From positions 248,001 through 312,000 of the forward strand of contig NZ_CP076458.1 of NCBI RefSeq assembly GCF_018866245.1: DNA of 64,000 nucleotides, in the 5' to 3' direction. The position numbers and the translations under genes were made by a program. The notes beneath the pieces were generated by a model. That model did no database searches and had not been told where the DNA came from. It was given only the letters and a program-made list of their open reading frames with translations. Positions within the stretch are counted from its first letter, which is position 1; each line of letters opens with the position of its first letter. This DNA is from Novisyntrophococcus fermenticellae. Its GTDB lineage: Bacteria > Bacillota > Clostridia > Lachnospirales > Lachnospiraceae. Below, in pieces: positions 5,026-38,251 of this stretch.

Positions 5026-5778
5026 ATGGATAAAATAACAGTTGAAAATATGAATCTTTACTACGGAGATTTTCAAGCCCTGAAGGATGTGAGTCTAAAA
5101 ATGCAGGAAAAGGAAATTACAGCGTTTATCGGTCCCAGTGGATGCGGTAAATCTACGCTTTTGAAATCCCTGAACCGAATGAATGACTTAATCAGTGGAT
5201 GTAAAATCACAGGGAAGATCTGTCTGGACGGAGAGGATATTTATGATAAAAAGATGGACGTAAATGCTTTGCGTAAAAGGGTGGGCATGGTATTTCAGAA
5301 ACCAAACCCATTTCCTATGAGCATCTATGACAATGTTGCATACGGGCCCAGGACACATGGGATTAAAAGCAAGGCAAAGCTGGATGAAATAGTGGAAACC
5401 TCTTTGCGTCAGGCGGCTATCTGGGATGAGGTAAAGGACAGATTGAAAAAAAGTGCGCTGGGAATGTCAGGTGGACAACAGCAGAGGCTTTGTATTGCCC
5501 GTGCACTGGCTGTACAGCCGGATGTTCTTTTGATGGATGAGCCTACTTCTGCACTGGATCCCATCTCCACCTCTAAAATTGAAGATTTGGCTGAGAAATT
5601 AAAGAAGCAATATACGATTATCATGGTAACCCATAACATGCAGCAGGCTGCACGAATTTCAGATAAGACCGTTTTCTTTTTGCTGGGTGAAGTCATTGAA
5701 TATGGGGATACGGAGCAGATATTCTCCATGCCCGGGGACAAAAGAACAGAGGACTACATTTCGGGAAGATTTGGTTGA
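5026..5778 (+). CDS. pstB: Phosphate ABC transporter ATPase PstB
   Basis: A 250-residue ABC ATPase powering phosphate import. Visible in order are Walker [10 protein letters not shown] (about residues 36-44), the Q-loop [11 protein letters not shown] typical of PstB, the signature [10 protein letters not shown], Walker [13 protein letters not shown] and the switch histidine in VTHNMQQA. Length is typical. It is immediately followed by phoU, and the four pst genes plus phoU form one operon. Confidence 0.96.
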
Positions 5779-25251: not shown

Positions 25252-25293
25252 TAGGTATGTGTCTGGAATGTCCAGGCCGAATAATTATTAAAT

Positions 25294-25677
25294 GGAGAAG
25301 TATCGAAGTGGCCATAACGAGCCGCACTCGAAATCCACTCGGTCAATTGCCTTGAAAATGCCATAAATCCTTGTGTTTATGCGGGTTTGCGGGATTTTGA
25401 AAATTTAGTGTTTTACCGATTTCTACGGTTTTTCTACACTTTGCCTTGACTTCTACGAAAGGCTTTGTGTGTTAAAATAGAATATGGAGACGTATCGAAG
25501 TGGTCATAACGAGCCTGACTCGAAATCCACTCGGTCAATTGCCTTGAAAATGCCATAAATCCTTGTGTTTATGCGGGTTTGCGGGATTTTGAAAATTTAG
25601 TGTTTTACCGATTTCTACGGTTTTTCTACACTTTGCCTTGACTTCTACGAAAGGCTTTGTGTGTTAAAATAGAATAT
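25294..25677 (+). repeat. Two 192-bp units, each with a tRNA-Ser 5' half
   Basis: tRNA-like 5' halves start at 25294, 25486 and 25678, exactly 192 bp apart. Each of the first two stops at the anticodon-loop core CTCGAAATC and continues into the same ~150-bp non-tRNA sequence (CACTCGGTCAATTGCC onward), identical in both units. That sequence includes several TTCTACG motifs that also occur next to the integrase. Half-copy 1 differs from copies 2 and 3 at four positions and cannot pair with the surviving 3' half. This is read as an attachment-site scar from repeated integration. Confidence 0.85.
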
Positions 25678-25766
25678 GGAGACGTATCGAAGTGGTCATA
25701 ACGAGCCTGACTCGAAATCAGGTTGTCCTCACGGGCACGTGAGTTCGAATCTCACCGTCTCCGCCA
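25678..25766 (+). tRNA. tRNA-Ser (CGA anticodon)
   Basis: An intact cloverleaf. Acceptor stem GGAGACG pairs with CGTCTCC (25756-25762), followed by discriminator G and an encoded CCA. The anticodon stem CCTGA/TCAGG encloses CTCGAAA, giving anticodon CGA. A long variable arm (TTGTCCTCACGGGCAC) marks a class II serine tRNA, and the T arm reads GAGTTCGAATCTC. It decodes UCG. The ICE integrase lies directly downstream, so this gene is the integration target or an element-borne replacement. Confidence 0.95.
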
Positions 25767-25926: not shown

Positions 25927-27174
25927 TCAGTTGGCCGCTGCAAGTCCAGTAGGTTTCGCCACTCGGTTTCTTTCAAACATTCCATCCATGACCAAACCGG
26001 ATTCAATCTGTGCGTGGAAGTCCAGATGAGAGTAAATGTCTGCTGTCGTGGAAAAGGTGCTGTGCCCCAGCCATATCTGGATTTGCTTCATGGATATCCC
26101 ATTTGCGAGCAGTAAGCTGGCACAGGAATGTCTTAAATCGTGGAATCGGATTTTTTTGAGGTCTGCTTTTTCAAGCACCCAGCTAAAGTGATCCGTCACA
26201 TAATTAGGGCGCATGAGCTTCCCTGTTTGGTCGAGGCAGATGTAGTCGAGATAATCTCGGCAGTAAGAGCGCTTGAATAACTTTCGGTACTTTTCCTGCT
26301 TTTCTTTTTCTGCAAGCAGTAGCTTTTCCACCGATGGCAGTAACGGAAGGGTGCGGAAGCTGGATTTGGTTTTCAGTACATCCTCACCGACCGCTATGGA
26401 TTTGCCGTCTACCGTGTCCTCAATCACCTTGTGCTTAATGGAGATAGTCTTTTGCTCAAGGTTAATCGCATCCCACTTTAATCCCAAGACTTCGCTTCGG
26501 CGCAAGCCATAGTAAGCTGCCAACTTCACACAAATCTCCAATGGATCATCTGATACCGCATCAAACAGAGCCATCATTTCCTCTGCGGAATAAAACTGAG
26601 CCTGATATACATTCTTTTTGGGTCGGTCTACCCGGTCAGCAGGGTTGCTACCTATGATTCCTTTTTTTACAGCATTCTGCAATGCTCTGCGAAGGACAGC
26701 GTGATAATGAATTACTGTATTGGGTGTGTGTCCTTCATCAAAGATTGATTGATGAAAGTCCTGGATGTGCTGTGGAGTAACCTCCGCCAAGGTAATGTTC
26801 AGTTCAGTAAAGTACCGGCTGATCCGTCCGTCCAGCATCGTTTGATAGCCCTTAAATGTTGTTTTGGCTATCGTGGGCTTTGCCTGTATCAGCCATTTCT
26901 GAAGGTAGTCGGTAAACAGTACCTCTGCTTGGGGATTCCGTTTGCCCTCAATTAGTTCTCTGGCTCGTTCCTCGGCATCCCGACGCTCTTTTTCTTCCTG
27001 CTCCTGTTCGTATTCCAACCGGATCTGGTCAAAGGCTTTTTTTGCTTTTCTGTCACTGGTTCCTTCCACCGGAAGTCCGGTAGGAACCCATTTGGTTTTT
27101 CTTTTGCCGTCCACCTTGATGTATAGAACGGCATAGTAAGTATTGTTTTTTTGCTGTAGACAGCCTGCTATCAT
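25927..27174 (-). CDS. int: ICE tyrosine recombinase (integrase)
   Basis: A 415-residue tyrosine recombinase of the Tn916/phage type. An N-terminal arm-binding segment and a SAM-like core-binding domain precede the catalytic domain. Catalytic residues are seen as Arg in YYGLRRSEVLGL, Lys in LKTKSSFRTLPL, HDLRH, and LGHS followed by the nucleophile Tyr in TTADIYSHL. It points toward the tRNA-Ser 3' end, with TTCTACG-type arm motifs on both sides. It should integrate and excise the element at the CTCGAAATC core. The start follows GGAGGG. Confidence 0.94.
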   Translation of the reverse strand: MIAGCLQQKNNTYYAVLYIKVDGKRKTKWVPTGLPVEGTSDRKAKKAFDQIRLEYEQEQEEKERRDAEERARELIEGKRNPQAEVLFTDYLQKWLIQAKPTIAKTTFKGYQTMLDGRISRYFTELNITLAEVTPQHIQDFHQSIFDEGHTPNTVIHYHAVLRRALQNAVKKGIIGSNPADRVDRPKKNVYQAQFYSAEEMMALFDAVSDDPLEICVKLAAYYGLRRSEVLGLKWDAINLEQKTISIKHKVIEDTVDGKSIAVGEDVLKTKSSFRTLPLLPSVEKLLLAEKEKQEKYRKLFKRSYCRDYLDYICLDQTGKLMRPNYVTDHFSWVLEKADLKKIRFHDLRHSCASLLLANGISMKQIQIWLGHSTFSTTADIYSHLDFHAQIESGLVMDGMFERNRVAKPTGLAAAN

Positions 27175-27321
27175 TGTTACCCTCCTTTGAAATAACAGCG
27201 TATTTGCCTACCATTGACAACACCACAATACCACAGAAAGCATGGGATAGCTACTGTTTTACGCGGAAGCAATCCAACGGATTTTTCTACGGTTCATGTC
27301 CAATAGTAAGCAAAAACCACA

Positions 27322-27540
27322 TCAAAAAATCTTGATGTGGCACATTTCTTCGCCCAGCAAATATTCCATAATGCACACTTTGGGAATCTTATAGGTTCGT
27401 CCAACGCGAACACTATGTATCTCTTTTTCCGAAAGCAGTTTATAAGCCAGCTTCCGGCTGATACCGCCAAGCATTTCTCGCAATTGATTTACCTCGACTA
27501 CATCAGGGTATTTTTCAAACATCATTGTTTTGTTGCTCAT
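27322..27540 (-). CDS. Excisionase-like small DNA-binding protein
   Basis: A 72-residue helix-turn-helix protein of the MerR/excisionase (HTH_17) type: VVEVNQLREMLGGISRKLAY followed by VRVGRTYKIPK. Such proteins sit next to integrases and bias recombination toward excision. It lies about 150 bp upstream of int on the same strand. A regulatory role is possible instead. Confidence 0.75.
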   Translation of the reverse strand: MSNKTMMFEKYPDVVEVNQLREMLGGISRKLAYKLLSEKEIHSVRVGRTYKIPKVCIMEYLLGEEMCHIKIF

Positions 27541-27553
27541 AAAAATTCTCCCT

Positions 27554-27922
27554 TCATGAAAAAAATGCCGGACTAAGTCCGACGCTGATAGAAAGTGCCT
27601 GATTTATTTTCTTCATGTCATGGTCGGAAAGATTTCCAACCTTTTCTCTGAGCCGAGCCCTATCAATGGTACGTATCTGTTCTAAAAGGGCAAAGGATTC
27701 TATGGACAGTCTGCCTACTCCGGCAATGGCTGAATGGGTGGGCAAAGGCTTTTTCGGTTTGCCGGTGATGGCACAGACGATGGTGGTAGGGCTGTAGCGG
27801 TTGCCGATGTCGTTTTGCAGGATAAGTACGGGACGGATGCCCCCTTGCTCACAGCCCACAACGGGGCTTAAGTCGGCATAAAAAATATCGCCGCGGCTGA
27901 TGCCTTTCTTTATCGTGTTCAA
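27554..27922 (-). CDS. PemK/MazF-type toxin without visible antitoxin
   Basis: A 122-residue protein with the PemK/MazF fold: RGDIFYADLSPVVGCEQGG, RPVLILQND, a PTTIVCAIT strand and a C-terminal helix. MazF toxins are sequence-specific mRNA endonucleases. A TTG at 27922, 8 bases after GGAGG, is the likely start; a GTG three codons earlier overlaps the ribosome site. No RHH or AbrB-type antitoxin gene precedes it; the upstream 600 bp are non-coding. It may stabilise the ICE or have become a regulator. Confidence 0.85.
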   Translation of the reverse strand: MNTIKKGISRGDIFYADLSPVVGCEQGGIRPVLILQNDIGNRYSPTTIVCAITGKPKKPLPTHSAIAGVGRLSIESFALLEQIRTIDRARLREKVGNLSDHDMKKINQALSISVGLSPAFFS

Positions 27923-27960
27923 ATTTTGCACCTCCTTGGTTTGTAATTCCTTTGGTTTTT

Positions 27961-28096: not shown

Positions 28097-28591
28097 ATTT
28101 TTCTCGCTGTGCTTAATTCGACACTACTCCCCAAGCACTCTGTGCAGAGCATGGTGCTTTGCACAACAAAGGCGACGGCCTGAACTGCGGCTGGCTAATG
28201 CCATGCAAGCATGGTATACCGCATCATAGGAATCTCACCTCCACCGGGATCTCCGCTGGCTGCCCTCATTGCGTGATCCCCCGTTCAGGGGGGCTGTGAC
28301 TGGACAGAAGTATCAATATAGGCTGACGGGGTCATTGCGAAGCAGGCTGCCACAGCCTGCTTTTCGGACGGATGGGTACCGCTCTGCACCTTATTTGGCC
28401 GTCTTTGATAGGCTGGAAAATGAGAAACCATAAACAGAATAAAATTAATATGGTTGATTTCATGTTCTCATCGCCGTCCTACAGGTGGTCTTGGCGCATC
28501 CTCCGGGGTCGCTTTCCCTTTTGGGGTCCGTCAGCTAACGTATTCAGGTCGTCGGATATGAAATTTTCAAAGAGCCATGAGGGTGAATAAA
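28097..28591. other. Non-coding region with several hairpins
   Basis: About 500 bp without a convincing gene on either strand. Visible structures: palindrome ATGCCATGC/GCATGGTAT (about 28,200-28,220), a C6/G6 hairpin near 28,290, and a GCAGGCTG/CAGCCTGC hairpin with TTTT at 28,342-28,364 that could terminate plus-strand transcripts. The function is unknown. Confidence 0.5.
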
Positions 28592-28642: not shown

Positions 28643-29062
28643 TTACTTTTCTATCATTTTTTTTAGTTTGCCAAGAATTTTGATCTTACGATCATGGATG
28701 GTCATATAGTGAAGACCCGTTTCTGAGCTCCACTGGCGCTCACTGATTCCCCTGAAAAACAGGGCGTAAATCAGTTCCTGTTCTTCCTTGGAAAGTTGGG
28801 CAAGGCATTGTTGGAGCTTTTCCGCTATGAGCTTGTCCACAACCAAATCCTCTACGCGTGGAGAAGTAAGGTCTGGAATCCCATCCTCGCCTGTGGTTTC
28901 GCCCGTATCCATGGCACTGTAATGAAAAACGCCGTTTGCGGTATCTCTTTCCTCCAGATAGGTTTCCCGGCGCTTCATGCGGTGATAGGTAACATAGACT
29001 TCTTCGGTGACGGGAACAAGCTGTCCCTGCACCTTGATTCGATACTCTTTCTTTTCTGCCAT
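28643..29062 (-). CDS. Sigma-70 region-4-like ICE regulator
   Basis: A 139-residue protein. The C-terminal half resembles sigma region 4: LAQLSKEEQELIYALFFRG followed by the helix-turn-helix SERQWSSETGLHYMTIHDRK. The N-terminal half (YRIKVQGQLVPVTEEVYVTY, RRETYLEER) is the region found in sigma-like regulators of Tn916/Tn1549-type elements. Start ATG 29062 follows GGAGG; an upstream ATG at 29104 is less likely. It probably controls element genes. A c-di-GMP riboswitch lies about 410 bp upstream on the same strand. Confidence 0.78.
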   Translation of the reverse strand: MAEKKEYRIKVQGQLVPVTEEVYVTYHRMKRRETYLEERDTANGVFHYSAMDTGETTGEDGIPDLTSPRVEDLVVDKLIAEKLQQCLAQLSKEEQELIYALFFRGISERQWSSETGLHYMTIHDRKIKILGKLKKMIEK

Positions 29063-29160
29063 ATGGCTTGTCCTCCATTTTCTGAAATTTTGATGGTGAA
29101 TCAAAATGTCAGAAACGGAGGGGAACGGCAGCGTGGAATTAACCTGTTTGCATTAGAAGC

Positions 29161-29258
29161 ACACCATATTTTACCTAATATTGTAAAATATGGTGTGTAG
29201 GTTTTCTTGTCGAAAGAAAAAAGTCAGCACTGCGCCCATGGCGAAATGCTGACTTTTT
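29161..29258. terminator. Two hairpins upstream of the sigma-like gene
   Basis: ACACCATATTTTAC/GTAAAATATGGTGT (29161-29174 and 29183-29196) is a 14-bp stem. AAAAAAGTCAGCA/TGCTGACTTTTT (29217-29229 and 29247-29258) is a bidirectional terminator-like stem. On the minus strand both lie between the riboswitch and the sigma-like gene, so read-through would be limited unless a promoter lies below them. Confidence 0.7.
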
Positions 29259-29316: not shown

Positions 29317-29349
29317 CTATTTCCACCTCTTATAAGTATAAAATCTCAT
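29317..29349 (-). CDS. Possible 10-residue leader peptide
   Basis: ATG 29347-29349 sits 6 bases after GAGAGGAG and opens a 10-codon frame, MRFYTYKRWK, ending TAG. It lies between the riboswitch terminator and the 29217-29258 hairpin. The excellent ribosome site and basic/aromatic content are consistent with a leader peptide or a truncated gene start. No homologue is recalled. Confidence 0.35.
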   Translation of the reverse strand: MRFYTYKRWK

Positions 29350-29432
29350 AGGATACTCCTCTCGCCGAAGCATGGCGAAAGCCGGTATCCCGATATCCTG
29401 TTTATCCGTCAAAAACCGACAGACATAAATAA

Positions 29433-29462
29433 GAGCCTGCCCTCTGAAACGAGGGCAGGCTC
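29433..29462 (-). terminator. Expression-platform terminator of riboswitch copy 1
   Basis: A 12-bp perfect stem (GAGCCTGCCCTC and its complement) with a 6-base loop, 12 nt after the aptamer on the minus strand, followed by TTATTT. The T-tract is short, so termination strength is uncertain. Confidence 0.7.
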
Positions 29463-29474
29463 CGCATAGCTTTT

Positions 29475-29556
29475 GGCAACCAGGCTATCGTAGTGCAGTA
29501 ATACACCTTAGACCCTATAGCTTTGCGTCCCCACCTTTTAGTGGGTTTGCCCTTGG
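29475..29556 (-). promoter_or_regulatory. Cyclic-di-GMP-I (GEMM) riboswitch aptamer, copy 1
   Basis: Read on the minus strand, the sequence contains GGGCAAACC, a CCCAC/GTGGG hairpin with an A-rich loop, GGGACGCAAAGC, the second hairpin GCUAU...AUAGC, and the closing GGUUGCC that pairs with GGCAA. This is the order and sequence of the GEMM-I aptamer. The base equivalent to Vc2 G20 (middle G of GGG before CAAACC) is G, favouring c-di-GMP over cGAMP. A terminator hairpin follows. Downstream on the same strand are a 10-codon frame and the ICE sigma-like gene; what it controls is inferred. Confidence 0.9.
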
Positions 29557-29725
29557 CTTTGATATTCTATTTTTATTAATACTCACGATCCTTACTTATA
29601 GATTGATGCGGCTACGGCTAACTTCTCCTTCTTGCGCCGTTTTCGTCTACTTCATTTGATATTATTAGAAAGAACATCAGTCATTTGCTCGCCATCCAAT
29701 AATGACGAAATTGCCTTTAGTATGT

Positions 29726-29943
29726 TTATCCACCTTGATTTAAGACCATTTCCGCTTTAGCAGGCTCCCTGCCAAGATAGGCGGCATGGTCAAGACGGGA
29801 AAGTAATCCACGCTTGATAACTGTATTTGCAATATCTTCGGCGCTTTCTCCTCTAATTCGTTGATAAGCGAATCAACTTTGCAAAACCAAGTATTGCGCC
29901 CCCTTAAAGCCAATTTGTCTGAACGATTATCTATGCGTATCAA
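29726..29943 (-). pseudogene. Frameshifted fragment downstream of the ZIP gene
   Basis: The minus strand opens with an ATG overlapping the ZIP stop (RIDNRSDKLALRGRNTWFC). After a frameshift near 29,870 it continues in another frame as IANTVIKRGLLSRLDHAAYL and GREPAKAE, ending at 29726. The DHAAYLGRExxKAE stretch resembles the C-terminus of DUF4346-type proteins (recall only). Either the gene is broken or this is a fused scar from cargo insertion. Confidence 0.4.
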
Positions 29944-30680
29944 CCACTTATCGCCACAATCCCGATAATTATTCCAAGCAATGTAAAGACCGTTGTTAAT
30001 CGTGTCTTAAGAATTGCGGCACCCTTCGGAAGTATTTCTTCAAAAATCATATACAGGATAATTCCCGCCACAGCCGAAGTAGTCAATGCCATTGCAACGT
30101 CTGACATATTCCCGACAAAGTAACCAATTGTCGCGCCAAGAATGGTCGGCACTCCTGTTAGTGTTGACAGCAAAACCGCGTTACGCTTTTTTGCTCCACC
30201 CGCCAATAACAGAGCGGCAGTAGCCACACCCTCAGGGATATTATGCAGAGCAAGGGTAAGAGCCATTGTCGCCGCAAACCCGATATGGTGTTCCGCTCCC
30301 GCGCCGATTGCAAGTCCGGCGGGTAAATTATGAATACCAACAGCTACAAGCATAATATAGCCGGAGCGCAAAATCTCGATTTTCACTTTCGCCTGTGGGA
30401 TTTCTCCGTCTTTGCCGTCCGCCATTTTATCGGAAACCGTGTCGAATATCAGAATTACGGCAATCCCGATTCCAATTCCCAAAATTGTTAGAGGAACGCT
30501 TGCAATCTCCAACACTTCGGGAACAAGGTCGAAAAACACAAGGCTCAACATAAACCCTGCGGCAAGTGACAGTAGATAATTGATGATTTTCGGAGAACGG
30601 TTTCCTGCCCAAACCGCTATCAGACTTCCGAGCAATGTTCCCAAAATGGTGGCAAGCAAACTGAATAAAACAGCTTGCAT
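29940..30680 (-). CDS. ZIP-family divalent metal transporter
   Basis: A 246-residue, roughly eight-helix membrane protein. The two metal-binding helix motifs are explicit: HNLPAGLAIGAGAE and HNIPEGVATA. An acidic cytoplasmic loop (DKMADGKDGEIPQ) sits between helices. ZIP proteins usually import Zn or other divalent metals. Its place 16 bp after the P-type ATPase in a Cd operon is notable, because importer and exporter share one transcript. The start follows GGAGGGGG. Confidence 0.88.
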   Translation of the reverse strand: MQAVLFSLLATILGTLLGSLIAVWAGNRSPKIINYLLSLAAGFMLSLVFFDLVPEVLEIASVPLTILGIGIGIAVILIFDTVSDKMADGKDGEIPQAKVKIEILRSGYIMLVAVGIHNLPAGLAIGAGAEHHIGFAATMALTLALHNIPEGVATAALLLAGGAKKRNAVLLSTLTGVPTILGATIGYFVGNMSDVAMALTTSAVAGIILYMIFEEILPKGAAILKTRLTTVFTLLGIIIGIVAISG

Positions 30681-30696
30681 TATATACCCCCTCCGT

Positions 30697-32538
30697 TCAC
30701 AGCTTTTTCGTATTAAGCGCGCGGAAAGAGTTCAGTACCGCGAGAACAGTCACGCCAACGTCTGCGAAAACCGCCATCCACATATCAGTAATACCTAGCG
30801 CGCTGAGGACGAGAACAACTGCCTTTATACCGAGTGCAAGCCAAGTGTTTTGCGTGGCAATGCCGAGCGTCTTTTTTGATATTCTGATAGCCGACGCAAT
30901 CTTTGACGGTTCATCGGTCATAATCACAATATCGGCGGCTTCAATCGCCGCGTCCGAGCCTAAACCGCCCATAGCTATCCCTATATCCGAACGAGCGAGA
31001 ACAGGCGCATCATTGATGCCGTCGCCGACAAAAGCGAGTTTGCCTTTCGCGGATTTGGCGGCAAGCAGTTCTTCCAATTTGGCCACCTTATCACCGGGCA
31101 AAAGTTCCGTGTAAATCTTGTCTACACCGAGTTCGCGTCCGACCTTTTGACCGACCGAGTTACTGTCGCCAGTGAGTATGACCGTTTGCTTAATTCCCAT
31201 AGCTTTAAGGCGGCGGATTGCTTCTGCGGAATCCTCTTTTACTTCGTCTGCAATAACGATATATCCGGCGTATTTGCTGTCAATGGCAACGTGGACAACC
31301 GTGCCGATTATTTCATCTTTACAGTAATCTACGCCGATTTTTTTCATCAGCCTTGTGTTCCCTGCAAAGACCTTTTTGCCAAACACCGTTACGCTGATAC
31401 CGTGACCCGCAATGTCCTCCGTGTCGGTCACTTTGCTCTTGTCAATCTCCTTGCCGTATGCGGTTTTTAGGGAGAGCGAAATCGGGTGATTGGAATAGCT
31501 TTCAGCGTATGCGGTCAACTCTAATAGTTCGTCTGCCGACACTTCAACAGGGTGGATTTCCTGTACCTTAAACACGCCTTTGGTGAGAGTTCCTGTCTTA
31601 TCGAACACAACCGTTTCAGTCTTTGCCAAAGCCTCAAGATAGTTGCTCCCCTTTACCAAAATACCGCTTCTTGAAGCCCCGCCAATACCACCGAAGAAAC
31701 TAAGCGGGATAGACACAACGAGCGCGCAAGGGCAGGACACCACAAGGAAAGTCAAGGCGCGAAGCGTCCACACGCTCCATTCACCTGTAATGAGCGAGGG
31801 AATAACGGCAAGTAAAACTGCGGCTCCCACGACAACAGGAGTATAAATCCGAGCAAACTTCGTAATGAAGTTTTCGGAATTGGATTTTTTACTGCTTGCG
31901 TTTTCAACAAGGTCAAGAATTTTTGAAACGGTTGATTCGCCAAATTCCTTTTGCACTTCAATGGTTAGAACGCCGCTGACATTGATACAACCGCTTAACG
32001 CTTCGCCGCCTACGGAAACTTCGCGGGGAACGGATTCGCCCGTCAAGGCTTTGGTGTCTACCATTGAGTTGCCCTCAATGATTATGCCGTCAAGCGGTAT
32101 TTTCTCACCCGGCTGTACGACGATAATATCGCCAATATTCACATCATAGGGATCAACCCTTTCTAAGCTGCCGTCACCGCGTTTTACATTAGCGTAATCG
32201 GGGCGAATATCCATAAGTCCGGCGATAGACTTCCTCGATTTAGAAACGGCGTAACTTTGGAATAACTCGCCGACTTGATAAAACAGCATAACTGCAACGC
32301 CCTCCGGGTACTCCCCCGCGATGAGCGCGCCGACTGTGGCGATAGTCATTAAGAAGTTTTCGTCAAAGACTTCTCCGTGCGTAATATTCTTGACCGCCTT
32401 AAAAATAATTTCGTAGCCGACGACAACGTAAGCGGCAAGAAACAGAATTATCGAAAGCCACTCCGGGTCTTTCGGAGCAAGCAGACCTGCCACGAAAATG
32501 ACAGCCGCTATGATGATTTTGGTTAGACGCTTATTCAC
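30697..32538 (-). CDS. cadA: Cd2+/Zn2+-exporting P1B-type ATPase
   Basis: A 613-residue heavy-metal P-type ATPase. The metal-site helix has SCPCALVVSIPL, the phosphorylation site is DKTGTLTKG, the HP locus is SYSNHPISLS, and the hinge is GDGINDAPVLA. The actuator loop is LTGESVPREV. There is no N-terminal metal-binding domain; a separate HMA protein is encoded just upstream. A GTG at 32538 after GAGGAGGG is the likely start. The SPC motif and CadC-type partner indicate Cd/Zn/Pb efflux. Confidence 0.92.
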   Translation of the reverse strand: MNKRLTKIIIAAVIFVAGLLAPKDPEWLSIILFLAAYVVVGYEIIFKAVKNITHGEVFDENFLMTIATVGALIAGEYPEGVAVMLFYQVGELFQSYAVSKSRKSIAGLMDIRPDYANVKRGDGSLERVDPYDVNIGDIIVVQPGEKIPLDGIIIEGNSMVDTKALTGESVPREVSVGGEALSGCINVSGVLTIEVQKEFGESTVSKILDLVENASSKKSNSENFITKFARIYTPVVVGAAVLLAVIPSLITGEWSVWTLRALTFLVVSCPCALVVSIPLSFFGGIGGASRSGILVKGSNYLEALAKTETVVFDKTGTLTKGVFKVQEIHPVEVSADELLELTAYAESYSNHPISLSLKTAYGKEIDKSKVTDTEDIAGHGISVTVFGKKVFAGNTRLMKKIGVDYCKDEIIGTVVHVAIDSKYAGYIVIADEVKEDSAEAIRRLKAMGIKQTVILTGDSNSVGQKVGRELGVDKIYTELLPGDKVAKLEELLAAKSAKGKLAFVGDGINDAPVLARSDIGIAMGGLGSDAAIEAADIVIMTDEPSKIASAIRISKKTLGIATQNTWLALGIKAVVLVLSALGITDMWMAVFADVGVTVLAVLNSFRALNTKKL

Positions 32539-32679
32539 TTTAAATCCCTCCTCTATATTGGTTGAGAGCTCACTCAACTGTTAGTGTAAAAAAATTCTTT
32601 AGTCAGCGGCATTAAGCAATTGTATAGGGCGTTAATCGAGAGTATCGCCCTATACAATCTCGCCGTTCGCGATGGCACA

Positions 32680-32904
32680 TCACGCCCGTTTCATTACGAC
32701 TTCCGGTTCGTACTTGTGAACGATTTTTTCAGCTTCGGCAACGATATAATCAATGTCTGCTCCCTCGGCGGTTTCAAAGACAAGTTTCGTTGTCATATGG
32801 TTGACACTTGCGGTTGTCACACCGGAAAGCGCGCCGATGTCCTTTTCCATTTTCGCGGCGCAGTTGGCGCAGTCAAGTCCTTCGAGTCTAAATTGCTTTT
32901 TCAT
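32680..32904 (-). CDS. Free-standing heavy-metal-associated (HMA) protein
   Basis: A 74-residue ferredoxin-fold metal-binding domain with the GLDCANCAAKME motif (CxxC) and the ASVNHMTTKLVF strand. It equals the N-terminal domain usually fused to CadA, here a separate gene between the repressor and the ATPase. It may act as a metallochaperone for the ATPase. The start follows GGAGG. Confidence 0.9.
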   Translation of the reverse strand: MKKQFRLEGLDCANCAAKMEKDIGALSGVTTASVNHMTTKLVFETAEGADIDYIVAEAEKIVHKYEPEVVMKRA

Positions 32905-32926
32905 AGTGATTTCCTCCTTAAAATTA

Positions 32927-33283
32927 TTATTCTGTGATATGGCTCAAACTTTGTTTTAGAATAATGTTTACGTGATCATCTACAAGAGAATAGTAGACCA
33001 CTTTGCCGTCTTTTCGGAACTTTACCAAGTTGGCCGCTTTCAAAGTTCGCAATTGATGTGAGATTGCGGATTTTGTCATCTTTAGCAAATATGCCAAATC
33101 ACACACGCACATTTCGCTGACACCCAAAGCCCAAAGCATCTTAACTCTTGTAGGGTCTCCGATTGCTTTTAGAAAATCAGAAGCGGCAATCATAGTTGTA
33201 TCTGAAAGCATTTGTGACTTCACATTCGCAACGATTTCTTCGTGGATAACATCGCAATCGCACACGTCTCCTTTAACGGGCAT
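32927..33283 (-). CDS. cadC: CadC-type ArsR-family metal repressor
   Basis: A 118-residue winged-helix repressor. The N-terminal extension carries CDCD and the recognition-helix region reads EMCVCDLAYLLKMTKSAISH, giving the Cd/Pb-site cysteines of CadC. The segment DPTRVKMLWAL is conserved in the family. ATG 33283 follows AAAGGAGG. It is first in the operon, downstream of a strong palindrome that overlaps the promoter, so it should release the DNA on Cd(II), Pb(II) or Zn(II). Confidence 0.9.
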   Translation of the reverse strand: MPVKGDVCDCDVIHEEIVANVKSQMLSDTTMIAASDFLKAIGDPTRVKMLWALGVSEMCVCDLAYLLKMTKSAISHQLRTLKAANLVKFRKDGKVVYYSLVDDHVNIILKQSLSHITE

Positions 33284-33309
33284 AGAAAGCACCTCCTTTG
33301 CATTTGATT

Positions 33310-33363
33310 GAGTGACTGTTCAACCATATTCATATTATAGTTGAACAGTCACTCATTTGTCAA
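33310..33363 (-). promoter_or_regulatory. cad promoter and CadC operator
   Basis: On the minus strand TTGACA (33358-33363) and TATAAT (33334-33339) are 18 bp apart. A perfect 15-bp inverted repeat, GAGTGACTGTTCAAC (33310-33324) and its complement (33340-33354), brackets the -10 element. This is the expected CadC/ArsR operator layout. Confidence 0.88.
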
Positions 33364-33652
33364 GGGGCTTTTGAATTTTTTTATAGCATCTGTCCTTTTC
33401 GTCTACCACGTTCAGCGAACGCGTGAAATTAACACGACAATGGTGTATGTACATTGCATATTCGGCTTTTGGGACAAGTTGGAGTTTTTCCATTAAACAG
33501 GATAGTTTTGGGTTAATTCAACATTGTGAAAGAAAGTCTGTAAAACGATGAATATGTGAAAATTTCCACTACCGCTGAACGAGCAAAAGCAGGGCGGGTG
33601 CATCTTTTCACGCTTTCCGTTCGGCGGGTGCATAAATGCTCGTTATGTGTAA
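33364..33652. other. Non-coding stretch beyond the cad promoter
   Basis: About 290 bp upstream of the cad operon with no convincing gene. It contains short duplicated pieces (two GGCGGGTGCAT copies near 33,595-33,632) and looks like recombination debris at the edge of the Cd module. Confidence 0.5.
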
Positions 33653-33808
33653 GATGGCAAGGACAAATTCGCCCTCAAAAACGCTTTGAAAAATCTCCTT
33701 GAACGCAAAAAAACCAGTATTACTGGGCTTTCAGGGTACATCGGGCTTCTATTAATCGCAATGTACAAATATGGCAGAGAAGAAGGACTCGAACTCTTAA
33801 AACCGTAG
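33653..33808 (+). pseudogene. C-terminal fragment of an unrecognised protein
   Basis: An open plus-strand frame of 51 codons without its own start follows an in-frame stop. It reads like a genuine C-terminus (ALKNALKNLLERKKTSITG, then YKYGREEGLELLKP) and is followed 10 bp later by a GC hairpin (ACCACCCG/CGGGTGGT, 33818-33838) with T-rich sequence. The parent gene was not recognised. Confidence 0.4.
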
Positions 33809-33911
33809 GCAGTCAAGACCACCCGTAAAGCGGGTGGTTTATTATTTCACATGGATTGATTTCTCCTAAAGAGAAACTCACCCATGTTCAACAGGCTAAA
33901 GCCCATAATAA

Positions 33912-33941
33912 GAGCCTGCCCTCTGAAACGAGGGCAGGCTC
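33912..33941 (-). terminator. Expression-platform terminator of riboswitch copy 2
   Basis: The same 12-bp stem as at 29433-29462, followed on the minus strand by TTATTATG. It may also end transcripts from the ars operon. Confidence 0.7.
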
Positions 33942-33953
33942 CGCATAGCTTTT

Positions 33954-34035
33954 GGCAACCAGGCTATCGTAGTGCAGTAATACACCTTAGACCCTATAGC
34001 TTTGCGTCCCCACCTTTTAGTGGGTTTGCCCTTGG
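33954..34035 (-). promoter_or_regulatory. Cyclic-di-GMP-I (GEMM) riboswitch aptamer, copy 2
   Basis: Sequence-identical to copy 1, with all GEMM-I landmarks (GGGCAAACC, GGGACGCAAAGC, GGUUGCC). It lies 140 bp downstream of the arsA stop on the same strand. The next same-strand gene is the cadC repressor, more than 650 bp away and with its own promoter, so this copy has no obvious target. It may be a scar of the cassette exchange. Confidence 0.9.
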
Positions 34036-34175
34036 CTGCAGTATTTATTTTTGACAGTTACTTCTTTCACGCTACTTTAAAACATCACCCAAGTTGGCGA
34101 TTCATCGTCTCAGCGGTCTGGCTGCCACAAGAATTATGGAAACATATAAATATGACTTTTACTATGTTTTCCACC

Positions 34176-35912
34176 TTACAGATTTAACAGGCGGTCGCCT
34201 TTAATTTCTTCAGCACTCCATGCAATTAGTGCAAATTTCCCCTTTGCGTGTTCATCAATACGGTTGAGCCACTCTACTTCGCCTGCCGCTTTTGCCGCAA
34301 GCATTGGGTTCGTGGTATTCGTGCCATAAAGAGACTGATTGACAACCCACCATTTGGCAGCAATGCCCGCCCGCTGCAAATCATCCTCCAGCCGCAACGC
34401 TTCATAAACGGGAGTTGCTTCGGGCAAGGTCACAATTAAAACCTCGGTTTCATCGGATTTCAGTCGGGGCAATAACCTCTTGACCGATTCGGGAATTTCG
34501 CCCTTGGTGCGCTGAATTTCGTGGTTGTAACTTTGGGTAGATTCAAGCAAAAGCAGAGTGTGACCAGTAGGAGCGGTGTCAATAACCACCACCTGATCAT
34601 TGGCTCTTTCCACAATCTCCGCAAAGGCACGGAACACAGCGATTTCCTGTGTACAAGGGGAACGCAAATCTTCTTCCACGTAGGCGATGTCCTCATCGCT
34701 CATGCCGGAAGCACGCGCTTTGGAAAGCACCTCAGATTGGTACTTCTTCAATTCTTCTGCTTCATCGATATGGCTCATTGACACACCGCTTTCTTCGTTC
34801 AGCACAAATTTCAGGTGAGCGGCGGGATCGGTGGTGGTGAGGTGGACTTTTTTACCACGCTTGGCAAGCCCTAATGCAACAGCAGCAGCAACAGTAGTCT
34901 TTCCCACGCCACCTTTGCCCATCGTGAAGATGACACGTTTGCCCTCTATCGCCAGTTCATCTATCACATCATTCAGCGCAGGAATATGTGTAGCATTCAG
35001 CGTTTGGACATGTGCGGTCACACGGTCAGTATGCAGCAAGGCACGCACATTTTCAAGCCCTGTCACATTATAGGTCCGCAGAGGAACCATACGGATTGGA
35101 AGTGTCCTTAGACTCTCTGGCATGGCAGCAAGGGCCGCCTGCTGCTTTGAGTACAGGTTGGAGGATAGGGTGTCGGTATATTCCATTAATACGCCGTTGA
35201 TCACCAGCATTTGATTGTTCACGCCCAATGCGGAGAGCTCGCCGGAAGCCCGTTCTGCTTCCTTGAAGGGAGCAGTTTCAGAGCGGCTGACGAGAATCAG
35301 CGTGGTCAGGCTACCGTTTGCCAGTGTTTCAACCGCCTGTTTGTAAATGGCCTTTTTGCTTTCTAATCCAGAAAGCTGGCCCAGGCAGGAGGCACCGTGT
35401 GTGCTTTCGCTGATGAAATTGCTCCATGCAGACGGGAGCTGAAGCATACGCAGGGTATGGCCGGTAGGGGCAGTATCAAAAATAATATGGTCGTATTCCT
35501 GCTGAACCTTATCATCCGTAATGAAGTTGGAAAACTCATTGAACGCCGCAATCTCAATCGTGCAGGAACCGGAAAGCTGTTCCTCCATATTGGCAAGGAC
35601 AGATTCCGGCAACTTGCCACGATAGGGAGCAATCACGCTCTCCCGATATTCGGCTGCTGCCTGTATGGGGTCCAAATTTGCAACCACCAAGTTGGGAACA
35701 TCAGGGATGGGAATACCCTTGTTGGTCAGTTCCATCGAGAATACATCCTGCAAGTTGGATGCCGGGTCGGTACTGATAAGCAGTACACTCTTGCCGCTGT
35801 CTGCAAGGGATACTGCGGTGGCACAGGCAACGCTGGTCTTGCCAACGCCGCCCTTGCCGGTATAGAAAAGGTACTTTGTTAGGTTGATGTTACGTGGGTC
35901 GAATAATTTCAT
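34176..35912 (-). CDS. arsA: Arsenite-transporting ATPase ArsA
   Basis: A 578-residue protein made of two homologous ATPase halves, each with a deviant Walker A GKGGVGKT (about residues 17-24 and 329-336) and the ArsA signature DTAPTGHTLR/DTAPTGHTLL. It energises As(III) efflux by a membrane carrier. The carrier here is Acr3, not ArsB, as in several Firmicutes operons. ATG 35912 overlaps the end of arsD's terminator codon region and follows GGAGG; the longer frame to 36014 is antisense-like overlap with arsD. Confidence 0.93.
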   Translation of the reverse strand: MKLFDPRNINLTKYLFYTGKGGVGKTSVACATAVSLADSGKSVLLISTDPASNLQDVFSMELTNKGIPIPDVPNLVVANLDPIQAAAEYRESVIAPYRGKLPESVLANMEEQLSGSCTIEIAAFNEFSNFITDDKVQQEYDHIIFDTAPTGHTLRMLQLPSAWSNFISESTHGASCLGQLSGLESKKAIYKQAVETLANGSLTTLILVSRSETAPFKEAERASGELSALGVNNQMLVINGVLMEYTDTLSSNLYSKQQAALAAMPESLRTLPIRMVPLRTYNVTGLENVRALLHTDRVTAHVQTLNATHIPALNDVIDELAIEGKRVIFTMGKGGVGKTTVAAAVALGLAKRGKKVHLTTTDPAAHLKFVLNEESGVSMSHIDEAEELKKYQSEVLSKARASGMSDEDIAYVEEDLRSPCTQEIAVFRAFAEIVERANDQVVVIDTAPTGHTLLLLESTQSYNHEIQRTKGEIPESVKRLLPRLKSDETEVLIVTLPEATPVYEALRLEDDLQRAGIAAKWWVVNQSLYGTNTTNPMLAAKAAGEVEWLNRIDEHAKGKFALIAWSAEEIKGDRLLNL

Positions 35913-35913
35913 T

Positions 35914-36285
35914 TTAACAGCAACCTCCTTCACAGCAACAGCCGCCAGATGCGGTTTTATTCTGCTTGCCCAACACATCTTCGGGAAGGTCGAGCAACTT
36001 CGTAAATTCCTCATTGGTAGGATAGCGGCCAGTAATCACGATTTTGCCATCGACCATCACAGCGGGCAATCCCTCTGTTCCTTTTTCGTTGATATACGCA
36101 TTGATAGTCTGGTCGGTGATAAACTCAGCCGGTGCGCTGTTAAGGTTGAAGCGGTCAATATTCATGCCTTTCTTTTTCAGCGTTTCCAATACTGTGGAGA
36201 TGCGCAGCAGTTCAGTATCAACTCCCACGCCGCAAAGGCCGGTTGAGCAACACATAGCGGGTTCAAAGATTTTCATTTTTTTCAT
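35914..36285 (-). CDS. arsD: Arsenic metallochaperone ArsD
   Basis: A 123-residue protein. The As(III)-binding cysteines are in MCCSTGLCG (Cys12, Cys13, Cys18), and the C-terminus has a further cysteine cluster (GGCCCEGGCC). The thioredoxin-like core includes GLPAVMVDGKIVITG. It delivers As(III) to ArsA, encoded directly downstream. The start follows GGAG. Confidence 0.93.
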   Translation of the reverse strand: MKKMKIFEPAMCCSTGLCGVGVDTELLRISTVLETLKKKGMNIDRFNLNSAPAEFITDQTINAYINEKGTEGLPAVMVDGKIVITGRYPTNEEFTKLLDLPEDVLGKQNKTASGGCCCEGGCC

Positions 36286-36308
36286 AGTAAAATATCTCCT
36301 TTATATAA

Positions 36309-36800
36309 TTAATTGAAATTGCTTCTTCGTTCCATAAGAACGGTATTGCGCCATTGTCCAAATCGGTCTTTTCCGATTCGCTCACGGAATCCCACCTGAC
36401 GAAATCCGCATTTTTCATGTAATCGAATGCTTGCTTTGTTGTCAGCCATAATTCCTGATTGCAGTGTCCAGAAATCCTCTTTCTCGGATTGGTCGGAAAG
36501 AAAATTTAGCAGTTGGGTTCCCACACCTTTTCCTCTGTAAGTGTCATGAATATAGATGCTGACTTCAGCCACACCGCGATATACACAACGGCTTGATACA
36601 GGCGTTAACGCCGCCCAACCAATAATGACATCATCATCGGTTATTACAAAGCGGCATTGCCTCATATGCGACTGATCAAATTCCTCATAGGTGGGGCATT
36701 CCGTTTGAAATGTTGCAAGATTTGTATGCATACCTTGCTGGTATATTTCGCTGACTGGCTTCCAGTCATCCTTTTGCATTGCTCTAATTTTGTAATTCAT
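36309..36800 (-). CDS. ArsN-like GNAT acetyltransferase
   Basis: A 163-residue GNAT of the phosphinothricin-acetyltransferase type: YRGVAEVSIYIHDTYRGKGV with the acetyl-CoA loop, ADNKASIRLHEKCGFRQVG and a C-terminal WRNTVLMERR. Members in ars operons (ArsN1) acetylate arsinothricin. Overlap with acr3 by 17 bp and position before arsD support an arsenic-linked role. Resistance to phosphinothricin-like compounds is an alternative. Activity is inferred, not shown. Confidence 0.78.
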   Translation of the reverse strand: MNYKIRAMQKDDWKPVSEIYQQGMHTNLATFQTECPTYEEFDQSHMRQCRFVITDDDVIIGWAALTPVSSRCVYRGVAEVSIYIHDTYRGKGVGTQLLNFLSDQSEKEDFWTLQSGIMADNKASIRLHEKCGFRQVGFRERIGKDRFGQWRNTVLMERRSNFN

Positions 36801-37845
36801 TTTGAGGAAACCAGCCTTTCGTTTTGTTTATAAATTTGACGAGCAAGAGCATGACCGGAACCTCGGTTAACACGCCGACCGTACAGGCAAGCACAACCGG
36901 CGAATTTGGACCTAAAAGAGTAATTGCTACTGCCACAGAAAGTTCGAAGAAGTCCGAGGCAGCAATCAGAGAAGCCGGAGCCGCAATGTTGTGTGGTTGT
37001 TTCGTCCACTTGCATATCAAGTAGGTAAAGGTGGCTGAGATTACATTTTGCAGAATCAGCGGTACTGCGATCAACAAAACGAACAGAGGCTGTTCCAAAA
37101 TAATATCGCCTTGGAAGGAAAAAATTATGATCAGGGTGAGCAGCAGCCCCAAGGTCGTGACACCGTCAAACTTTGGGAGAAACCTTTCATTGAAATACTC
37201 TATGCCTTTTTTCTTTATCATCAAAAAGCGCGTAAGTGCGCCGCCAACCAGCGGAACGACAACGAATAATACGATGGAAAAGAAGAGCGTATCCCAAGGA
37301 ATCGTAACGCCATTTACTCCCAGCAAGAATTGAACCAGCGGCACAAACAGCACGAGGATTAAGAGATCATTGACTGAAACCTGTACAAGCGTATGCGCCG
37401 GATCGCCTTTCGTCAGATGACTCCATACAAACACCATCGCCGTGCAGGGTGCTACGCCCAGCAATACTGCGCCTGTCACGAAGTCCTGTGCCAACTCTGC
37501 TGGGATAAGAGGTTGGAAGATGACCTTGAAAAACAAAGTCGCCAGCCCAAACATGAGGAATGGTTTAATGAGCCAGCTGCTTCCGCTGGAAATGAGGATG
37601 CCCAAAGGATTTTTCCGCACATTCTTGATAGACTGGAAATCAATTTTCATCATCATGGGGAAAATCATAATCCAAATGAGGATGGCAATCGGGAGGTTCT
37701 GCCCGGCATATTGAAATTTTTCTAAGACATCCGGAATGCCGGGCAGGAATTTTCCGATCAGGATACCAGCTGCCATGCACAGCAGAACCCAGACGGTTAG
37801 ATATTTTTCAAAAAAACCAATGCCTTGTGTCTTTTCTTGTTCCAT
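36784..37845 (-). CDS. acr3: Arsenite efflux carrier Acr3
   Basis: A 353-residue, ten-helix membrane carrier of the BASS superfamily. The essential cysteine is in GVAPCTAMVFVWSHLTKGDP, and the conserved glutamate in GVLTEVPVMLLLV. Start ATG 37845 lies 8 bases after GGAG; the GTG at 37854 overlaps the ribosome site. It is the As(III) exporter that ArsA may drive. Confidence 0.93.
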   Translation of the reverse strand: MEQEKTQGIGFFEKYLTVWVLLCMAAGILIGKFLPGIPDVLEKFQYAGQNLPIAILIWIMIFPMMMKIDFQSIKNVRKNPLGILISSGSSWLIKPFLMFGLATLFFKVIFQPLIPAELAQDFVTGAVLLGVAPCTAMVFVWSHLTKGDPAHTLVQVSVNDLLILVLFVPLVQFLLGVNGVTIPWDTLFFSIVLFVVVPLVGGALTRFLMIKKKGIEYFNERFLPKFDGVTTLGLLLTLIIIFSFQGDIILEQPLFVLLIAVPLILQNVISATFTYLICKWTKQPHNIAAPASLIAASDFFELSVAVAITLLGPNSPVVLACTVGVLTEVPVMLLLVKFINKTKGWFPQNELQN

Positions 37846-37858
37846 TGTTATCACTCCT

Positions 37859-38209
37859 TTAATGAGGTTTTTTGTTGCACTCGCATAAGCCTTGTAATTT
37901 GCATTTCTGATATTCTTCGCAATCCGAAGGATAGGACGGCAGTGTCCTCAACCTGCCTTTCAAGTACTCCCATAGTTCTGTATTTTTCTGAATGAAACCA
38001 TCGCTTATTTTGTAGTAGGTCCATTGCGCTTTTTTATTGCTTTCTAGAATTCCACATCTCTTTAGTGCGGTCAAATGCCGAGATGCATTTGATTGAGTCA
38101 TTCTCAGACAGGCTTCAATTTCGCAGACACACAACTCACCTTCCAGCAGTAGTGACAATATACGCAATCTGCTTTCTTCTGACAATGCCTTGAAAATATC
38201 CACCATCAT
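37859..38209 (-). CDS. arsR: ArsR-family arsenic repressor (first)
   Basis: A 116-residue winged-helix repressor with the As(III)-binding ELCVCEIEACLRMTQSNASR region and extra C-terminal cysteines (DCEEYQKCKLQGLCEC). It is first in the acr3-arsN-arsD-arsA operon. ATG 38209 follows GGAGG; a second ATG is adjacent. A palindrome just upstream is its probable operator. Confidence 0.9.
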   Translation of the reverse strand: MMVDIFKALSEESRLRILSLLLEGELCVCEIEACLRMTQSNASRHLTALKRCGILESNKKAQWTYYKISDGFIQKNTELWEYLKGRLRTLPSYPSDCEEYQKCKLQGLCECNKKPH

Positions 38210-38231
38210 CTTCACCTCCAGTTTTATTCTT

Positions 38232-38251
38232 ATATGAGCATGCACTCATAT
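38232..38251 (-). promoter_or_regulatory. Probable ArsR operator
   Basis: ATATGAG and CTCATAT form a perfect 7-bp inverted repeat with a 6-bp spacer, about 25 bp upstream of arsR. Confidence 0.65.

Follow-up and report, generated by a model that had tools for sequence, protein, structure and literature searches.

Two aptamers and the leader of a regulator gene

The window analysed here, 64,000 nt of Novisyntrophococcus fermenticellae DNA (NCBI RefSeq assembly GCF_018866245.1, contig NZ_CP076458.1, positions 248,001 to 312,000), contains two copies of a cyclic di-GMP-I (c-di-GMP-I or GEMM-I) riboswitch aptamer inside an integrative and conjugative element (ICE). Copy 1 opens the leader of a gene for a sigma-70 region-4-like regulator, and this leader runs through the aptamer, a hairpin (T1), a short leader open reading frame (ORF), a terminator (T2) and a hairpin over the regulator's Shine-Dalgarno sequence to the regulator itself; copy 2 lies behind an arsenic operon. 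The features concerned, all on the minus strand and numbered by window position, are:

29472..29561, minus: c-di-GMP-I (GEMM-I) aptamer copy 1 (RF01051, 76.2 bits; leader position conserved)
29432..29463, minus: hairpin T1 of copy 1, terminator-like; its 5' arm TGCCCT complements AGGGCA in the aptamer 5' strand
29351..29391, minus: hairpin with the leader ORF's Shine-Dalgarno sequence (helix 5; 96.6% paired, 3 of 12 pairs changed on both sides)
29317..29349, minus: leader ORF, MRFYTYKRWK* (in-frame, conserved end in 17 of 17 leaders; start chosen by eye beside the Shine-Dalgarno sequence)
29217..29258, minus: T2, strong intrinsic-type terminator (attenuator) (helix 6; 98.3% paired, 3 of 17 pairs changed on both sides)
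29072..29121, minus: hairpin over the regulator's Shine-Dalgarno sequence (helix 7; 99.1% paired, no pairs changed on both sides)
28643..29062, minus: sigma-70 region-4-like regulator, 139 aa (P0001; its relatives P0022 and P0043 match Sigma70_r4)
33951..34040, minus: c-di-GMP-I aptamer copy 2 (RF01051, 74.7 bits)
33911..33942, minus: hairpin T1 of copy 2, identical to that of copy 1

An earlier note on this DNA had claimed two identical GEMM-I aptamers, each followed by the same 12-bp terminator hairpin and the first by a 10-codon frame and a sigma-like gene. Both aptamers were recognised by cmscan far above the RF01051 gathering score of 35 (E 3.4e-13 for copy 1 and 7.9e-13 for copy 2), and they are the only RF01051 matches in the host genome (3.42 Mb, single contig). 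They share an exact 131-bp repeat (100%; 29428-29558 and 33907-34037) that begins just before the aptamer and ends just past the hairpin, beyond which the flanks are unrelated to each other. The hairpin is perfect (12 bp, or 13 pairs with an outer G-U) and the same after each aptamer (29463-29432 and 33942-33911, offset 4479 bases), but the name 'terminator' suits it better than it suits its tail, where U residues are only moderately frequent (TTATTTAT in copy 1, TTATTATG in copy 2); in the distant relatives L121 and L078 the equivalent hairpin ends in 7 T (3 within the stem) and 6 T, respectively. The two genes lie where the note had placed them in relation to copy 1, at 29317-29349 and 28643-29062, and its picture of an aptamer with a terminator holds as far as it goes, yet the leader has also a conserved leader ORF, the stronger terminator T2 and the hairpin over the regulator's ribosome-binding site.

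We surveyed relatives of the regulator in genome contigs (23 loci, found with two short peptide patterns, so that this search was not exhaustive), in viral contigs (6 loci) and in further samples of 391, 392 and 398 genomes drawn by class, order and phylum, in one of which 30 of 49 listed places became loci; all loci (L numbers) were then scanned with Rfam, and a protein search gave 221 regulator relatives at E 0.001 or better. Close loci were defined by a regulator identity of at least 66% and enough upstream sequence (n = 25: the window, L040, L052-L061, L063-L070, L074, which is cut after 33 residues, L075, L112, L116 and L117). An aptamer stands upstream of the regulator, at the copy 1 position, in 24 of these 25, or in 22 of 23 if the window and L040, both reached via the aptamer, are set aside; the 24 include identical copies (L058, L059, L060 and L116; L065 and L066). 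From aptamer end to regulator start codon the close loci measure 396-421 nt, except for L068 (666 nt) and L069 (489 nt), both with N runs. The organisms include Youngiibacter, Lacrimispora, Faecalicatena, Clostridium viride, Caproiciproducens, Sedimentibacter, Marasmitruncus, Butyricicoccus and a Bacillaceae bacterium.

Among 40 distant loci (below ~55% identity, or short partial matches), five have a leader aptamer 410-592 nt before the start (L076, L078, L085, L120 and L121). L077 was considered and not counted, its aptamer (2502-2588) lying 1.9 kb upstream before another gene, which by eye reads like an HD-GYP protein. Also not counted were loci whose sequence ends before the leader (L071, L072, L111, L113 and L062, the last of which shares its contig with L082), and L039 and L046-L051 served for BLAST comparison only. 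Searches of plasmid and phage records with the module DNA and of viral contigs with the exact aptamer pattern gave no match; the start of the regulator, searched as an exact 19-mer, matched one contig, that of L111. As side observations, no regulator gene was seen downstream of the aptamer, T1 and leader ORF of L034/L041 (G342), which may be remnants of an element of this kind, and L036/L043 (G290) carry two tandem c-di-GMP-I aptamers ~150 nt apart from start to start.

We aligned 17 leaders from aptamer to start codon, leaving out L068 and L069 (N runs of 366 and 105) and the duplicates L059, L060 and L116 (equal to L058) and L066 (equal to L065), and used L112 alongside them. Mean column identity is 78%. 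A seven-helix structure has 97.5% of its cells paired and 20 pairs changed on both sides, compared with 9.6 in shuffled controls (0 of 500 reach 20) and 2-5 in slid versions, in a test biased in its favour because the structure was picked on the same alignment. Apart from the two hairpins given above, changes on both sides affect 5 of 13 pairs in T1, 1 of 9 in P3, 4 of 6 in P2 and 4 of 5 in P3b. Covariation gives no support to the hairpin that covers the Shine-Dalgarno sequence of the regulator, in which 0 of 19 pairs changed in this way.

All 17 leaders keep the leader ORF open; its last codons encode R (G in L052), then W/C/S, then K/R/Q/N, followed by a stop, and it has 10-13 codons from the start nearest the Shine-Dalgarno sequence (a choice by eye; GTG in L052), several leaders having an additional in-frame start further upstream. 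By eye, that of L112 ends E-C-K. Distant leaders, again by eye, retain much of this arrangement: in L121 the aptamer is followed by T1, here with a long T run, then by a short ORF, another terminator and, at the start, a comparable hairpin, and in L076 a small zinc-ribbon-like ORF takes the place of the leader ORF. T2 ends in a T run that is partly paired with a leading A run. An extra long hairpin lies between T2 and the regulator's start hairpin (29159-29198), and several relatives have, by eye, one of different sequence at this place, sometimes with a T run after it.

P0001 itself does not reach the Pfam family Sigma70_r4 at 0.001, as P0022 and P0043 do, and a 30-member family profile of the regulator matches sigma factors in PDB weakly (best E 0.00045). 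Another frame, 28740-29078, was considered for the sigma-like gene and discarded when scans with it gave nothing, the correct frame being 28643-29062.

Switch sense, input and ligand

The two arms of T1 are constrained differently. In the 17 leaders the 5' arm TGCCC is unchanged in all 85 cells, whereas its 3' partners are changed in 7 of 85 (Fisher p 0.014), and some of these changes disrupt the pairing; at its base, both arms of T1 vary. In an extended set (with G342, L112, L076, L085, L120, L121 and L078) the counts are 0 of 120 and 15 of 120 (p 4e-5). This second p value is rough, since the leaders have common ancestry, L076, L085 and L120 having one change in common, and those in the extension had been located by TGCCC. 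The arm has a second partner, since TGCCCT is complementary to AGGGCA in the aptamer 5' strand, which holds ligand-contact position 20 and its neighbours. When the transcript was stopped after the T1 5' arm, the folding model gave the AGGGCA/TGCCCT pairing a probability of at least 0.6 in 14 of 17 leaders. Asymmetric constraint and modelled folding together favour a switch that c-di-GMP would turn OFF kinetically.

In a count that includes both window copies, 15 of 19 close entries lack a sigma-70-like site within 350 nt upstream and 4 have weak ones, so that polymerase would enter mostly by read-through, and the close-family leader may thus be fed from the preceding operon, which is ars in L067, L069 and L074 and cad in L056-L060. 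A perfect TTGACA-17-TATAAT begins 187-198 nt upstream in three distant loci (L076, L085 and L120), and a fourth, L121, has no such site. A promoter-like site within the leader, at 29292-29263, was rejected as its promoter, its -10 not being kept in relatives (by eye).

These observations suggest a layered OFF switch. Polymerase would enter the leader mostly from the upstream operon, here metal-resistance cargo. Without c-di-GMP, AGGGCA in the aptamer would hold TGCCCT, T1 would form late and polymerase would pass; with c-di-GMP, AGGGCA would be locked in the binding pocket, T1 would fold at once and termination would increase. A polymerase past T1 would then meet the leader ORF, T2 and finally the hairpin that covers the ribosome-binding site of the regulator. 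Hence regulator output would need cargo transcription, low c-di-GMP and a leader-ORF condition together. By analogy with Orf7 of Tn916, the regulator could be an activator of excision. We consider it probable, with fair confidence, that copy 1 belongs to a conserved leader through which an ICE regulator is controlled in this layered way, copy 2 being a duplicate.

In the closed host genome (98.23% complete) we found no match to GGDEF, EAL or SMODS, in a search that did not extend to HD-GYP and PilZ, so that the switch probably has no ligand in this host and its first gate, T1, would stand open. The earlier note had suggested that biofilm or motility state could act through a second-messenger switch on an element regulator; the conserved position in the close loci strongly backs the proposed link to the regulator, but a biofilm or motility input by the usual route is unlikely here. 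GGDEF is present in 52 of 61 relatives and the riboswitch in 29 (one of the two underlying searches used stricter filters), and of the 9 relatives without GGDEF only the host and G003 have a riboswitch. That of G003, a genome of the same genus, is a single c-di-GMP-I aptamer of different sequence (L038, 14401-14489, minus) next to what by eye are radical-SAM-like and transporter-like genes. GGDEF occurs in 16 of 17 genomes with regulator relatives, or in 15 of 16 once the L073 genome is set aside for its lack of a riboswitch leader; the GGDEF-less one is the 1.0-Mb assembly of L057. Hosts of relatives have up to 30 GGDEF matches.

Position 20 is described in PMC10333796 as decisive for the preference between c-di-GMP and cyclic GMP-AMP (cGAMP). 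It is G in 16 of the 17 aligned leaders, window included; in L055, from a Lacrimispora defluvii element, the aptamer (5514-5602) has A there, a lead to cGAMP preference. Our assignment of leader positions to Vc2 numbering is presumed. That 3',3'-cGAMP and not c-di-GMP is the natural ligand, as the A of L055 might suggest, deserves hardly any credence in view of the G in all other leaders and a host with neither a SMODS nor a GGDEF match.

Several observations weigh against a c-di-GMP OFF switch at T1. The AGGGCA/TGCCCT pairing is weak or absent in L063 (0.37), L053 (0.15) and L055 (0.00). The complete T1 is always formed at equilibrium in the folding model (1.00 in 17 of 17), so that an OFF switch must be kinetic, and the T1 tail is U-poor in the window and several relatives. 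L117, whose regulator shares 76% identity, lacks the aptamer and has a leader of different sequence, and 35 of the 40 distant loci lack a leader aptamer, 34 of them having no aptamer at all (L073, L079, L080, L083, L084, L086-L110, L114, L115, L118 and L119; L103 offers just ~560 nt of upstream sequence). In a host without a GGDEF match the switch would hardly be under selection, and GGDEF is not enriched among genomes with regulator relatives, 16 of 17 not being above the background of 52 of 61.

Some of the same points suit an ON switch, in which the ligand would favour read-through at T1 or free the leader ORF's Shine-Dalgarno sequence and c-di-GMP would raise the regulator. With T1 always formed at equilibrium and a weak tail, T1 may not be the decision point, and its 3' arm and tail can pair with the leader ORF's Shine-Dalgarno sequence (columns 134-139 with 213-218; 93% paired, 4 pairs changed on both sides), a pairing easily produced, though, by pyrimidine and purine columns. 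A T1 5' arm that never varies and complements the ligand-binding strand is what one would expect to see in an OFF switch, and we regard the ON sense as unlikely, if still credible.

The surrounding element and copy 2

Read on the minus strand, the element has the arsenic operon, copy 2, a metal cassette, copy 1, the leader ORF, the sigma-like gene, a pemK RNA and the genes for PemK, an excisionase-like protein and a tyrosine integrase; its other side holds TraG/VirD4-type, Toprim, MobL, VirB4-like and TrbL genes. The further features are:

34176..38245, minus: arsenic operon (ArsR-type, SBF/Acr3-type, GNAT, ArsD, ArsA), upstream of copy 2
33334..33363, minus: consensus promoter TTGACA-18-TATAAT of the metal cassette (pattern match only, 12/12)
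29940..33292, minus: metal cassette (ArsR-type regulator, HMA protein, CadA/ZntA-type ATPase, ZIP), between the two copies
28224..28319, minus: pemK RNA (RF02913, 64.6 bits; many relatives have one too)
25927..27931, minus: PemK toxin gene, excisionase-like gene and tyrosine integrase

The location inside a conjugative element, as the earlier note had it, was borne out by profile matches to Phage_integrase, HTH_17/excise-like, MobL, T4SS-DNA_transf, AAA_10/TraG P-loop and TrbL_5, which together give integrase, excisionase, relaxase, coupling protein and transfer ATPase. By its gene order the element may resemble the Tn1549 group. The integrase is adjoined, at 25292-25763, by a tRNA-Ser gene (anticodon CGA) and an array whose units of ~192 bp each contain 44 bp from the 5' half of the tRNA. 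No second copy of the tRNA 3' end, and with it no far boundary of the element, was found in the window and the next 40 kb. Repeats similar to those of the array are present in L054, L057, L058, L060, L070 and L072. About where others carry the pemK RNA, L115 (1146-1248), L118 and L119 (both 2162-2263) have a dinG RNA (RF03082).

The earlier note had treated the two aptamers as equals, and in this it did not hold; its remark that copy 2 has no plausible target did. Sequence past the copy 2 hairpin differs from the leader, no gene belonging to copy 2 was found downstream, and the next gene, the arsR of the metal cassette, starts ~660 nt past the aptamer behind its own promoter (33363-33334). Upstream, the copy 2 flank matches the ars-carrying L067, L069 and L074 over 174 bp (88.5-90.2%), a match that sets in 38 bp ahead of the aptamer and stops directly past the hairpin. 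A position behind ars genes is something copy 2 shares with related ars elements; the copy 1 leader is closest to that of L074 (92% over 599 bp). Copy 2 is best read, from these alignments, as a by-product of the joining of an ars element and a cad cargo at the repeat, a joining that would be recent because the two copies are identical. A Campbell-type insertion was considered and not adopted, since what follows the copy 2 hairpin is not the leader. At most copy 2 might give the arsenic transcript a c-di-GMP-tuned 3' end. It is intact and identical to copy 1, as a working second switch for the downstream metal cassette would be, but the distance to the next gene, the separate 12/12 promoter and the unrelated sequence past the hairpin make such a role very improbable.

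The repeat also bears on whether the aptamer regulates at all or is kept only as a travelling block or recombination site. A host without detectable c-di-GMP synthesis, a copy duplicated without a target, repeat ends at the edges of aptamer and hairpin and a degenerate aptamer in L052 (5491-5579, 40.2 bits, the rest of that leader being complete) would all fit a block of this kind. The ligand-contact positions are nearly invariant across diverged leaders, whereas helices P2 and P3b vary by compensation, and hence a non-regulatory aptamer seems improbable to us.

Meaning and comparison with known systems

If copy 1 acts as proposed, a second-messenger riboswitch would be core control of a conjugative-element family in Clostridia and a Bacillaceae genome, and the spread of cargo genes would be linked to a biofilm-motility signal. 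More tentatively, as a serious possibility that falls short of what we would defend for the leader itself, the family may read host c-di-GMP, cargo transcription and a leader-peptide attenuator to time its departure, transfer being tied to moving or settling, with the brake permanently released in hosts without c-di-GMP. The present host, without GGDEF or EAL, and the GGDEF-rich hosts of relatives offer a natural comparison without and with ligand, and the leader, at ~500 nt, is small enough for reporter use.

Known targets of c-di-GMP-I riboswitches are motility, surface and virulence genes (compare, in part, PMC6200980). As an aptamer copy 1 is a plain member of the RF01051 class, which it resembles in sequence and structure, in the G at position 20 and in the terminator-type hairpin that follows; it differs in its fixed position in the leader of a conjugative-element regulator, where a leader-ORF attenuator is stacked with it. 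For this element family such a constant location appears not to have been reported: a targeted search of full-text literature, mostly outside subscription papers, found no c-di-GMP riboswitch in a conjugative element (cf. the available text of PMC9050547 and PMC5749029), and the sigma factors that C. difficile conjugative transposons carry are not linked to a riboswitch in the available part of PMC7438776. Within the same module the pemK RNA (RF02913) is another conserved RNA, downstream of the regulator, but a separate element before PemK.

Three mobile systems come close, each described here from the accessible portion of its source. Phage PhiCD119 carries a c-di-GMP riboswitch (PMC10333796), likewise on a mobile element, but a phage and not a family-wide conjugative regulator leader. 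In Tn916, orf7 is said to be released when tet(M) is transcribed through and to up-regulate xis and int (PMC7288454); cargo transcription, a stem-loop leader and a regulator raising xis and int are shared as a likeness of arrangement only, and no riboswitch is described there, unlike the leader presented here. V. cholerae conjugative elements encode c-di-GMP turnover proteins (PMC10333796) and are therefore also tied to this messenger, but whereas they make or break the signal, the family described here would sense it by RNA.

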